Shown here in pieces: positions 1 through 43,773 of a stretch of DNA of 64,000 bases. The notes beneath the pieces are model-generated. The model was not told where the DNA came from and ran no database searches. It worked only from the letters and a program-made list of their open reading frames with translations. The stretch comes from Candidatus Nitrosopumilus sp. GTDB lineage: Archaea > Thermoproteota > Nitrososphaeria > Nitrososphaerales > Nitrosopumilaceae. The position numbers and the translations under genes were made by a program. The stretch's first letter is position 1; every line of letters starts with the position of its first letter. The stretch lies in assembly GCA_003702525.1 (NCBI GenBank), contig REGJ01000001.1, forward strand, positions 56,093-120,092, written 5' to 3'.

Positions 1-651
1 GATGAAATAATGCTTGTCTTTGTCAATTAGGTATAATCGAATTTTAGGCGAAATCTTTTTGCTTTTTTTGACATTTGCCAAAAATTTTGAAGCATTCATG
101 ACGCAACAAAATCCCATCAATCAATTAAGGATTTGGCAGATTTTCAGAGATGATCAATTTGCTCACAAAGTTTATAGATCAGCGATCAGAAATCAGACTA
201 GAGATAACAGGTACAAAAATAGATTATTCTTATCAAATTTCTGTTATCTACTAAAGGTTACATTTCTGTTAATGTGTTAGGCACGCATTTTCTTTTTTAA
301 TGAAGGTTGAAAAAAAGAATATTCTGATAAATCAAAAAAAGACCAAAAATAGATTCTAAAAAAACTCATTCCACCTGATAATAGAAATGAATCAAGCCTC
401 TAAAACAGTATTTTTTGGGGAATCATAAAGTCTCGAGGTCTTGATACAACATACATTTGAAAAATTGATTGATAATTTCATGTGTCTAAAAAAATTAACT
501 AACATTCAACTCGGTTAGATTGTAATCGATGAAGGTTTTTGTTTCCGTATGTGTCTAGTTTGGTTTTACCTACAAACCTATTGACGGCAATAATGATTGA
601 TTCTATTTGGTAATAAAGCAGATGAACGATTGTTCTGTGACAACAGGTTAA

Positions 652-678
652 ATTCTAAACTCTTTGAGAATAGACAAT
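652..678 (+). promoter_or_regulatory. Copy 1 of repeated upstream element ATTCTAAACTCTTTGAGAATAGACAAT
   Basis: Same 26-27 nt motif at 928, 40558-40584 (minus) and 43623; core starts 59 nt before ATG 712; TATA-like TTAAAAAT follows at 683-690. Confidence 0.75.
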
Positions 679-711
679 ATTGTTAAAAATGAACTACGTT
701 AGATCGTAATT

Positions 712-927
712 ATGGATTTACTCAAAGACAAAAGAAAAAAGATGAAAAAAGACATTGAGTATGCCTTAAGAAAGGAAGATAAAATCTTACACGATGAAAA
801 TGAAGAACCTGTAACTTATGTGGATGAAGAAGATGTGAAATCCATAGAACATCAAGAACATGTGGAACATGATGAAAATGAAGAACCTGTAACATTTGTA
901 AAAAAATCAGAAAACGAAAATCTTTAG
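712..927 (+). CDS. Small acidic protein with internal duplication (HDENEEPVTYV / HDENEEPVTFV)
   Basis: ORF track; 26-nt internal DNA near-repeat at 790-815 and 868-893. Confidence 0.7.
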   Translation: MDLLKDKRKKMKKDIEYALRKEDKILHDENEEPVTYVDEEDVKSIEHQEHVEHDENEEPVTFVKKSENENL

Positions 928-954
928 ATTCTAAACTCTTAGAGAATAGACAAT
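928..954 (+). promoter_or_regulatory. Copy 2 of repeated upstream element ATTCTAAACTCTTAGAGAATAGACAAT
   Basis: Core starts 58 nt upstream of ATG 987. Confidence 0.75.
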
Positions 955-986
955 ACGCTTAATTTTATATCTTTTAGATTCTAATC

Positions 987-1112
987 ATGTTTGAAGATAA
1001 TCTACCACTCTTAGGGATAATTATTGCAGCCGGAGTCGCTTTTGTCATTTGGATTGCTAAAAAATCTATTACAGGGTATTACAAAGGAAAATCTGAGGGC
1101 TACAAATCTTAG
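987..1112 (+). CDS. 41-aa single-TM microprotein MFEDNLPLLGIIIAAGVAFVIWIAKKSITGYYKGKSEGYKS
   Basis: Read by hand; one hydrophobic helix; preceded by copy 2 of the upstream element. Confidence 0.65.
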   Translation: MFEDNLPLLGIIIAAGVAFVIWIAKKSITGYYKGKSEGYKS

Positions 1113-1376: not shown

Positions 1377-3296
1377 TTAAGATTGATCAATACCTAACAC
1401 ATCACGATATGCTTTGGGGATGATTTTTTGGGTTTTATTGACTAGTTCATGAATCTTCGAATCAATTACATATGTAATTGCCCAATCATCATTACTTCTA
1501 ATTGATCTTCCAAATCCTTGCAAAATAGTCATTATTGTTTGTGAATCATACCATAATGGGAATTTTTTCATTTTCTCTCGAACACGTGGGTCTCCTAAGG
1601 ATTTGTATGGTACTTTAGCAATTATTTGAAATCTAGAATCTTCATCTTTAAGATCAACCCCTTCCCATAATGATGAGGATAATAATACACTAGCCTTGTT
1701 CTTTCTATGCTCGTCAATAATCTCATCTTGAGTTTTTCCATCATTATTTGTAGAATGACATATCCGAATTCTTTTTTTATTTTCAGGAGATAATCCCCTA
1801 AGAATTTCCCAACATCGTGATTTTGATTGAGTTAAAATTAATCCTCGTTCATCTGTATGTTTTGTTAGTAATTCATCGATTCTTCTAATTGCACCTGATT
1901 CTACTTCGGGGGGAGATTTTGCACTCAGAATACCCATATCTAAAAATTCTACTTGTCTATTTTCATATGGGAATGGGGATTTTGGGGTATCAATAAATGC
2001 AATTTCAGATTCATCTAATCCCATTGTTTCACAAAAACTCTTTTTATCAATTGTAGCTGACATGAAAATTTGATATTCTGTTTTAAAGAAATCCTCAACA
2101 TAATTTGAGATCTTCAAGGGTTTAATTGAAATAGATACCGAATTAGCATAATCATTTGTAGAATCTTGAATAATAAAATTTTCAGGATCATTATTTATTT
2201 CATTAATTGCATTTGCAAAATTCTTAAAATTACTTTCAAATCGTCCCAATAATTTTACATCTACTTTTTCTTTATCTATCTCCATTCTTTTTTCTAATTC
2301 TGCAATTTGTGTACCGTAAAATTGCCTCATGATATTTAGCACTTCAAGTAATTCATCAATTTGTAAAACATCATATTTTCTAATATCTATTTGACATTCT
2401 TCTAATTGATTTTTTGAAATATTTATTCCAATAAACTGGATTATTTGATCTTCAATTCCATGAGCCTCATCAAAAATTGAAACTTTTTTTTGCAAATGTT
2501 CTTTAAAAACCGACTCGTTTTGCATTAATTGGAAAAATGCAGAATAATTCCACACCGAGAAACTTGATACTAGTCCAAAATATTTTTGAAAATAATAACT
2601 ACAATCATCTACATTTTGTGTATTGGTAGAAGTTACATTACTAAGGGGTCTTTTGAATCTGCAAAATACGGTAACATCTTTACCATTTTCATTTTTTTCT
2701 GTTCCTTCAACACAATCTCCTTTTTCACAAGTATAACCTAACTCCTTTGCTAAAATTGGGTCATCAACTTTTTGCTTTTCCATAATTTTTAAACATTCAA
2801 AATTTGATTTTCCTTTAACGGGTCGTAAAAACGGATAATCCCTAGCATATTGATCCTGTAAACTCTTTGATTTTGTGATAAAAAACCCATCTTTGAAATA
2901 TTTTGCAATAGCAACACCAACAGCAGATTTGCCAACTCCTGTAGGGGCAGAAATTACAATTTTTTTAAATCCAGATTTCATACTAGTTTCAATCTCTTTG
3001 AGAATTTGTTTTTGAATTTCTCTAGGAATAATGTTTGTTGGAAAATATTCTTCAATTTTTGAAATCGGTATATTTTGGGCAGTGTTTTTAGAAACAGATT
3101 CGTTTTTAATTATAGATGGTTGGATTGAGGGTTTTGAATTTCTAAATAATTTGCGGATATATGACTCTCTTGCATCATCATCATTTCCAGAATCTGTGAA
3201 ATATCGTGCTTTTTGACAATCACATTTTGCTTCAACTGTATGTGTACCAAATTTTGATATTTTGATCTCAGACTTACATTTAGGACAAGTTTTCAT
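1377..3296 (-). CDS. XPD/DinG-family Fe-S superfamily 2 DNA helicase
   Basis: Walker A APTGVGKS, DEAH box, Cys residues between motifs consistent with an Fe-S domain, motif VI QGFGRSIR; N-terminal zinc-ribbon-like CPKC. Confidence 0.85.
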   Translation of the reverse strand: MKTCPKCKSEIKISKFGTHTVEAKCDCQKARYFTDSGNDDDARESYIRKLFRNSKPSIQPSIIKNESVSKNTAQNIPISKIEEYFPTNIIPREIQKQILKEIETSMKSGFKKIVISAPTGVGKSAVGVAIAKYFKDGFFITKSKSLQDQYARDYPFLRPVKGKSNFECLKIMEKQKVDDPILAKELGYTCEKGDCVEGTEKNENGKDVTVFCRFKRPLSNVTSTNTQNVDDCSYYFQKYFGLVSSFSVWNYSAFFQLMQNESVFKEHLQKKVSIFDEAHGIEDQIIQFIGINISKNQLEECQIDIRKYDVLQIDELLEVLNIMRQFYGTQIAELEKRMEIDKEKVDVKLLGRFESNFKNFANAINEINNDPENFIIQDSTNDYANSVSISIKPLKISNYVEDFFKTEYQIFMSATIDKKSFCETMGLDESEIAFIDTPKSPFPYENRQVEFLDMGILSAKSPPEVESGAIRRIDELLTKHTDERGLILTQSKSRCWEILRGLSPENKKRIRICHSTNNDGKTQDEIIDEHRKNKASVLLSSSLWEGVDLKDEDSRFQIIAKVPYKSLGDPRVREKMKKFPLWYDSQTIMTILQGFGRSIRSNDDWAITYVIDSKIHELVNKTQKIIPKAYRDVLGIDQS

Positions 3297-40334: not shown

Positions 40335-40375
40335 GTAATCAATATCAAAAATTATTTTAATTTTAAAAAAGAGCT

Positions 40376-40417
40376 TTTTTCATCCATGGTAATTTCACAG
40401 GGCGGATTGAGTTTTTT
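40376..40417 (-). repeat. 3' element copy A: AAAAAACTCAATCCGCCCTGTGAAAT ... GAAAAAAGCTCTTTTTT
   Basis: 26-nt identity with 40803-40828; directly after the stop of the Cys-rich CDS. Confidence 0.75.
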
Positions 40418-40524
40418 TATTTATGGCAATCACAACTGCAACTGTTTGGAATACATCTGTGGTTAAGACAGTCTTTACAACCTTTACTTCGTCCACTTTT
40501 TACCCTTAACCATTCCTTGTCCAC
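40417..40524 (-). CDS. 35-aa Cys-rich microprotein (M/V)DKEWLRVKSGRSKGCKDCLNHRCIPNSCSCDCHK
   Basis: GTG start in register with ATG 712 when the two ~60-nt leaders are aligned. Confidence 0.65.
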   Translation of the reverse strand: MDKEWLRVKSGRSKGCKDCLNHRCIPNSCSCDCHK

Positions 40525-40557: not shown

Positions 40558-40584
40558 ATTGCCTATTCTCAAAGAGTTTAGAAT
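40558..40584 (-). promoter_or_regulatory. Copy 3 of repeated upstream element
   Basis: Core starts 59 nt upstream of GTG 40524. Confidence 0.75.
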
Positions 40585-40603
40585 CTAATCGTCTTTCTGA
40601 TCT

Positions 40604-40696
40604 TCAATGTATTTTTTTAAATTCTTCTTGTTTTAGTCCTTCTTCAAGTATTCTTACCTGTTCTTTTTGTCTGAATTCTTCTTGTTCGTCAGGCAT
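40604..40696 (-). CDS. 30-aa charged microprotein MPDEQEEFRQKEQVRILEEGLKQEEFKKIH
   Basis: Read by hand. Confidence 0.4.
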   Translation of the reverse strand: MPDEQEEFRQKEQVRILEEGLKQEEFKKIH

Positions 40697-40785
40697 AGTG
40701 TATTTTGTCTCTAATTGTATATAACATAGTGATAAATTATTTCCTAGTGCTAAAAATCATCATTTATTGAGAAGAAAAAAATGAT

Positions 40786-40828
40786 CTTTTTCCTCTAGTG
40801 TCATTTCACAGGGCGGATTGAGTTTTTT
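40786..40828 (-). repeat. 3' element copy B: AAAAAACTCAATCCGCCCTGTGAAAT ... GAAAAAGATCATTTTTTT
   Basis: 10 nt after the stop of CDS 40839-41306. Confidence 0.75.
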
Positions 40829-40838
40829 AGAATCTAGT

Positions 40839-41306
40839 TTATTGACACCATTCTGCTTGAACAATACCATCTTTTACTTCTTGCATGCATAATGCATATT
40901 CGTATCCATAGCACATTCCAGTATCTTCACTGTCAACCTCAGAGCCCTCTTTTGCTTGGCAGAAACTCTGACATTCAGAGGAATCACTGCATGTCATTTC
41001 TCCATCACTAGTTGGCATATTGCAAGACTTGTCAGCATCTATGGCATTGCTCCAGATTCCCCATTGCCCACCTGCCATCTGACACTCTTTACTTTCAGGA
41101 ATGGATTCGACAAAGTGTTTTCCATCTGCCGTCCTGCATTGTCTTGGATAGGATTCCATGACTGGATTTCCCTCATCAACACATTCTTGGAAGTTAGTAG
41201 CTGTAGAAGTTGACTGCAAATCCATTGAGTTGATAAAATTAAAGGTCAAAAGAACTATCATAATTATTATTGCAACAATAATTACTCCAATAAACATAGT
41301 CTTCAT
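40839..41306 (-). CDS. Membrane-anchored/secreted Cys-rich protein
   Basis: N-terminal TM; FQECVDEGNPVMESYPRQCRTADGKHFVE; 12 or so Cys. Confidence 0.75.
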   Translation of the reverse strand: MKTMFIGVIIVAIIIMIVLLTFNFINSMDLQSTSTATNFQECVDEGNPVMESYPRQCRTADGKHFVESIPESKECQMAGGQWGIWSNAIDADKSCNMPTSDGEMTCSDSSECQSFCQAKEGSEVDSEDTGMCYGYEYALCMQEVKDGIVQAEWCQ

Positions 41307-41391
41307 GAATTGTCTGATAAAGTTTCAAACTTAAGCGTATTGATGAGTTTAGAATAAAAAAATCAAAATAATTTTTGATATTTATTACAAT

Positions 41392-43597: not shown

Positions 43598-43622
43598 ACA
43601 GTTCTTTAACTATAAGTTTTAA

Positions 43623-43649
43623 ATTCTAAACTCTTTGAGAATTAACAAT
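43623..43649 (+). promoter_or_regulatory. Copy 4 of repeated upstream element ATTCTAAACTCTTTGAGAATTAACAAT
   Basis: Core starts 60 nt upstream of TTG 43684. Confidence 0.7.
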
Positions 43650-43683: not shown

Positions 43684-43773
43684 TTGAAACATGTAGTAAT
43701 TGGAGCTGTAGGAGGCGGAGTTGCAGTGCAAAGAGCTGGATTGAATTTGGGTTCTGTCAAGCTTGTTGAGTAA
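43684..43773 (+). CDS. 29-aa microprotein MKHVVIGAVGGGVAVQRAGLNLGSVKLVE (TTG start), alternative frame from GTG 43677
   Basis: Position relative to copy 4; frame ambiguous. Confidence 0.4.
   Translation: MKHVVIGAVGGGVAVQRAGLNLGSVKLVE

Follow-up and report, generated by a model that had tools for sequence, protein, structure and literature searches.

A 15-bp core element as the probable junction of integron-like gene cassettes in Nitrosopumilus

Small genes and repeated elements at the locus

The window, a stretch of 64,000 nucleotides from a Candidatus Nitrosopumilus sp. genome, carries four copies of a short element, each followed by a small gene. The first array (648 to 1280) adjoins a helicase gene. 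Copy 1 of the 15-bp core of the element (TTAAATTCTAAACTC, 1 mismatch; 648 to 662, + strand) forms the 5' boundary of the 712 cassette, cassette being used here for a segment that runs from one core to the next. It is followed by the right half of an imperfect palindrome, CTCTTTGAGAATAGACAAT, and by the TATA-like stretch TTAAAAAT (683 to 690), which together mark a cassette-specific promoter region (660 to 690, +) in common with the cassette at 40588. The gene of this cassette (712 to 927, +) encodes a charged 71-aa protein without a Pfam match. Copy 2 (924 to 938, +), an exact TTAGATTCTAAACTC, joins the 712 and 987 cassettes and gives the 712 ORF its stop codon. A degenerate core-like copy with 3 mismatches, TTAGATTCTAATCAT (974 to 988, +), overlaps the start codon of the 987 ORF (987 to 1112, +), the gene of the second cassette, which encodes a 41-aa microprotein with a single transmembrane (TM) segment and without a Pfam match. 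The next gene (1121 to 1279, +) encodes a 52-aa zinc-ribbon-like protein that scored below the Pfam cut-off and has a relative near a core in G088 (L179). Upstream of the array, the degenerate core ATAGATTCTAAAAAAACTC (349 to 367, +) has the same form as a junction at 40820 to 40837 and is possibly the left array boundary.

The helicase beside the first array (1377 to 3296) is a 639-aa protein extended at the N terminus; it is found at 86 to 95% identity in a few genomes only (G023, G024, and G043). In most relatives the helicase has roughly 565 aa and about 50% identity to it, and some genomes have two versions.

About 40 kb downstream, core copy 3 (exact; 40574 to 40588, - strand) joins the PDEQ and MDKEWL cassettes. 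One of the adjacent cassette genes encodes a 35-aa Cys-rich microprotein with a GTG start (40417 to 40524, -), which has relatives near cores in G027, G031, and G077; the other encodes a 30-aa MPDEQEEF protein (40604 to 40696, -), whose cassette is also present in G023 with 98.8% identity. Further along the window, the gene at 40839 to 41306 (-) encodes a Cys-rich protein of 155 aa that is hydrophobic near its N terminus, and a degenerate core lies ahead of it. The degenerate core at 41345 to 41359 (-; TTTTATTCTAAACTC, 2 mismatches) is followed by the promoter-like ATCAATACGCTTAAGTT and precedes a fifth small gene. Core copy 4 (TTAAATTCTAAACTC, 1 mismatch; 43619 to 43633, +) stands before the gene of a 29-aa hydrophobic microprotein (43684 to 43773, +). 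A second short repeat, AAACTCAATCCGCCCTGTGAAAT, occurs after cassette boundaries at 40365 to 40419 (-) and 40770 to 40822 (-), with a similar start at 365 to 372 (+); either a terminator that cassettes have in common or the 5' end of one family of cassettes may account for it.

With up to 3 mismatches, the 20-mer TTCTAAACTCTTTGAGAATA has exactly four matches in the window (653+, 929+, 40583-, and 43624+), compared with 0.02 expected per window from shuffled sequences, which bears out the repeat described in the initial annotation. The whole 1.28-Mb assembly contains these four copies and one further match with 3 mismatches, and none better elsewhere. The full motif TTARATTC begins at 648 and 924, 4 nt ahead of where the element had been placed. 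TTCTAAAC lies 59, 58, 59, and 60 nt ahead of the start codons at 712 (ATG), 987 (ATG), 40524 on the - strand (GTG), and 43684 (TTG), respectively. The spacing of about 58 to 60 nt noted earlier thus holds for 4/4 copies in the window, and so does the TATA-like stretch 3' of the element, ahead of the start codon. The downstream proteins are unrelated, as had been stated, but the copies at 648 and 40588 have 54 bp in common beyond the core (87%), the TATA and start region included, so that for this pair the repeat is longer than first described.

Extent and distribution of the core

The conserved unit is a 15-bp core, TTAGATTCTAAACTC, with the inner palindrome TTAG-ATT-CTAA. Over 153 sites from Nitrosopumilus relatives, information was confined to positions 0 to 14, about 15 to 17 bp in all, with both flanks flat; the sites were chosen by core match, and the informative part of this result is the sharp edges rather than the high match inside. 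The two positions after the core showed a weaker preference, for T/C and then T/A. The imperfect palindrome, which had been proposed as the conserved element, was not retained as a unit: the relatives keep its left 15 bp only, and its right half is cassette content. Searching the relatives with the 20-mer gave mostly scattered matches, but in the close relatives G023 and G046 the left part, TTAGATTCTAAACTC, is present with different continuations.

In pattern and profile searches of the relatives, which are mostly draft MAGs, TTAGATTCTAAACTC with up to 1 mismatch was matched 330 times across 96 genomes of the genus, compared with 69 times for the reversed pattern, and at least 5 cores were found in 24 of these genomes, compared with 1 for the reversed-pattern control. 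The copy number reached 25 in G066, 21 in G014, 20 in G048, 19 in G050, and 17 in both G032 and G079, and other genomes had none. At the family level, exact cores were present in 55/252 genomes and 8/22 genera (control, 2 matches). Many cores are solitary. All eight cores of G027, a single contig, lie on one strand, which might relate to replication direction. Transcription factor B-like genes were observed close to cores in three genomes (L108, 1956 to 2849; L117, 50 to 757; L194, 1466 to 2422).

Exact 18-mer matches in other organisms (Methylococcaceae, Chlorobiota, and others) were isolated and were taken as chance or conserved coding sequence. A recurrent match with 2 mismatches, TTCTAAACTTCTTGAGAATA, in several Nitrosopumilus genomes was set aside, since its flanks align in every copy and it looks like one conserved locus. 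IMG/VR, scanned with two extended forms of the core, gave no match, and in the literature searched neither the core nor cassettes in Nitrosopumilus were described.

Cassette architecture and homology breakpoints

Neighboring cores less than 1.2 kb apart were direct repeats in 55 of 57 pairs. The core-to-core segments measure about 50 to 950 bp and typically hold one small ORF in either orientation, encoding proteins that, judged by eye, are zinc-ribbon-like, TM, or charged.

In comparisons of assembled genomes of different species, homology at cross-genome site pairs was one-sided in 70 cases (33 downstream only and 37 upstream only, some of them short shared promoters only) and two-sided in 2. 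When alignments between genomes were not anchored on the sites, 145 of 679 alignment ends fell within 20 bp of a core, compared with 24.7 expected, and 2 of 363 alignments ran through a core.

Individual cassettes were recovered in new contexts. Cassette T, which encodes a 39-aa protein, has three copies in G027 and one in G046, cassette C is present in the same two genomes, and cassette D (117 aa) occurs in G027 and G023. All three are homologous from core to core, and their genes are oriented oppositely to the genes in the window cassettes. In G027 cassette T comes before C, and in G046 it comes after. Two of the G027 copies of T, at 49 kb and 212 kb, stay aligned through TTAGATTCTAA at the downstream end and diverge after it, placing the predicted crossover in or next to this 11-bp palindrome.

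At 40820 to 40837 (-), where the window has a single junction with the hybrid sequence CTAGATTCTAAAAAACTC, G023 has three more cassettes (sites 9400 to 8635); the left part of the hybrid corresponds to G023 site 9400 and the right part to site 8635. By this alignment, the window genome and its close relative G023 differ by the gain or loss of three whole cassettes. At core copy 3, the homology to G023 stops; the MDKEWL microprotein cassette follows in the window and other DNA in G023. Around the first array, cores are present in the ilvD-helicase neighborhood of G023, G027, and G066, and the corresponding stretch is shorter, about 0.35 to 1.4 kb, in most sampled core-less relatives, an "empty site" comparison that is only partly clean given the variable intergenic length.

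Promoters and start codons

In the relatives, CTTAAG was found within 40 nt downstream of the core at 24/153 sites and on the other side at 0/152. The motif favored offsets of 7 and 20 nt from the core and was most often located about 29 nt ahead of an ATG. ORF starts (ORFs of at least 25 aa) lay 15 to 75 nt from the core at 51/150 sites (34%) in the forward and 40/147 sites (27%) in the reverse direction, compared with 19% at random offsets. This enrichment is modest and occurs on both sides, indicating that the core is not a general promoter element. Most cores lack a CTTAAG promoter, and the fixed distance to TATA and start seen in 4/4 window copies applies to a minority of those in relatives. 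The constant spacing of 58 to 60 nt in the window can be attributed to the layout of the four cassettes, each of which has a forward gene whose compact promoter lies at the edge of the cassette. This promoter is probably leaderless, as judged from general knowledge of transcription in archaea.

These results bear on the proposal that the element is regulatory, with an activator or TFB-type factor binding the palindrome upstream of the TATA box and controlling a microprotein regulon. The fixed spacing in the window and the strictly one-sided CTTAAG favor such a role for a subset of sites; in the cassettes with CTTAAG, the core may also act as a promoter-proximal element, and this function could coexist with one in cassettes. 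As a general reading, however, a regulon is unlikely. Most cores are promoterless, many cassette genes point the opposite way, relatives do not conserve the palindrome's right half, and a binding site would leave the breakpoints, direct-repeat arrays, and reordered segments unexplained. Nor do the data support regulation as the cause of the conservation: homology stops at the core, and entire segments between two cores have been gained or lost or stand in a changed order. The element would thus serve mainly as a junction, with its promoter neighborhood being secondary.

Search for the recombinase

No serine recombinase was found in the 12 genomes with arrays, and inspection by eye of the ORFs of 60 aa or more that the larger segments contain revealed no recombinase borne by a cassette. 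The tyrosine integrase domain (Phage_integrase, PF00589) was not detected in G000, G014, G023, G027, G079, and G091, a search in which a divergent Xer could be missed. Five genomes with at least 5 cores had no detectable Phage_integrase, among them G027, which is one contig and 99% complete. The number of integrases did not track the number of cores (rho 0.21, P = 0.12).

Of 69 integrases, mostly from core-bearing genomes, 4 had a core with up to 2 mismatches at the 3' end of their gene or next to it, compared with 0/69 in a forward-core control. The reverse-strand core lies at -25 nt relative to the int stop in L249, at -15 nt in L271, and at -8 nt in L250; in L253 (8376 to 9260), an exact core lies 51 nt past a tyrosine integrase gene that is seemingly truncated just before the catalytic tyrosine. 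Three of these four cases were noticed while looking near cores, so that 4/69 is not fully unbiased and the core-ended integrases are a lead rather than an identification. In a second set of 39 integrases, mostly from core-poor genomes, no core with up to 3 mismatches was found at the int 3' end. The Phage_integrase domain is present in both L249 and L250. L249 and L271 are 83% identical and were counted as one lineage, and L249 and L250 share only 33% identity, indicating that the core position is not simply inherited by all integrases. The leading candidate for the enzyme is a tyrosine integrase of integrative elements that has its att core at the int 3' end and would act in trans on enzyme-less cassettes, an assignment to which we give somewhat less than an even chance.

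Proposed mechanism and significance

The element is very probably the junction of a mobile gene-cassette system, in which the 15-bp core bounds short single-gene segments. At the level of aligned sequence, the sharp core, the direct orientation, the breakpoints at cores, the shared cassettes in new contexts and order, and the gain or loss of whole cassettes are established. From these, we infer site-specific recombination on the core by a dedicated enzyme, as well as the mobility of the cassettes. The assembled genomes that were compared showed no excised circle and no junction that varied within a population. In the proposed mechanism, a core would bound a short segment that is typically one small gene, in some cases with its own promoter, and recombination between two cores would add, remove, or swap whole segments. 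The outcome of such core-core recombination would be cassettes dispersed over the chromosome and direct-repeat arrays that vary from one close relative to another. Cassettes without an enzyme may be acted on in trans by the integrase of an integrative element.

Alternatively, illegitimate or homologous recombination could have happened to take place at a short repeat, the core, without a dedicated enzyme. G027, in which no resident tyrosine, serine, or Cas1-type recombinase was found, would fit this passive explanation. It is improbable nonetheless, since 15 bases that are near-unchanged among unrelated flanks across the 8 genera, and that keep a strict direct orientation, point to a recognized site.

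Few cells in the ocean are as abundant as marine ammonia-oxidizing archaea, which have small genomes with many unexplained small genes. If the proposed mechanism is correct, the cassette system would account for the distribution of microprotein genes among these archaea and for their exchange, and the 15-bp core would provide a simple sequence tag for locating such genes. The system would also add to the known forms of modular gene exchange; with attC and IntI absent, its cassettes would be missed by integron searches. Which recombinase acts on the cores becomes a directly testable question.

Comparison with known systems

Casposons generate a short target duplication of a length similar to the core. 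An insertion of CRISPR or casposon type, in which a Cas1-type integrase duplicates a 15-bp target at each event, would accordingly leave direct repeats at the cassette borders and yield same-orientation arrays, but this origin is highly improbable. The Cas1 domain was present in 4/12 array genomes and absent from the other 8, including G027, G014, G066, and G079, and the cassette ends are not conserved outside the core, leaving no candidate terminal inverted repeats. Casposons are known from thaumarchaea (PMC6563490) and their casposase target has been described (PMC6614799), whereas in the present system neither Cas1 nor terminal inverted repeats are tied to the cores.

A true integron or CALIN, with attC cassettes recombined by an integron integrase, shares the architecture of short, mostly single-gene cassettes, same-orientation direct-repeat junctions, sharing and reordering between genomes, and a local integrase that is often absent, but it is very improbable here, since attC-like hairpin potential was absent (the mean folding z was near 0, no different from that of control windows), R''-R' pairs were not in excess (3/148, compared with 4.2 in shuffles), no IntI (TIGR02249) was above the cut-off in any of the 96 genomes, and cassette genes lie in both orientations. 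Archaeal integrons and CALINs have been published and are defined by attC and IntI (PMC9668308). Unlike their foldable attC sites, the site described here is a sharp 15-bp box; its genes can point either way, some have their own promoters, and many cores are solitary and scattered. Because neither an attC fold nor IntI above the cut-off was found, we refer to an integron-like cassette system and not to an integron.

The dif modules of Acinetobacter (pdif, XerCD; PMC13141974) resemble the cassettes in being small gene modules without a recombinase, bounded by short sites and extensively shuffled. In each of their sites, a 6-bp spacer separates two distinct Xer arms, and successive sites are inversely oriented (PMC13141974), whereas the cores are direct repeats of one short conserved box, and an Xer-type protein was not detected in several array genomes. 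The cryptic integrated elements of thaumarchaea have XerC/D-type integrases (PMC6563490), the same tyrosine integrase domain family as encountered here, and direct repeats flank the integrated DNA. They are insertions of 2.6 to 140 kb defined by an integrase (PMC6563490), in contrast to multicopy cassettes of 50 to 950 bp with one common core. On balance, we favor a distinct archaeal cassette system that is neither an integron nor a dif module. Its core would have two roles, as the site of recombination and, where the gene runs forward, as the upstream border of a compact promoter, and the system would move microprotein genes among Nitrosopumilaceae by means of a recombinase new to this role.
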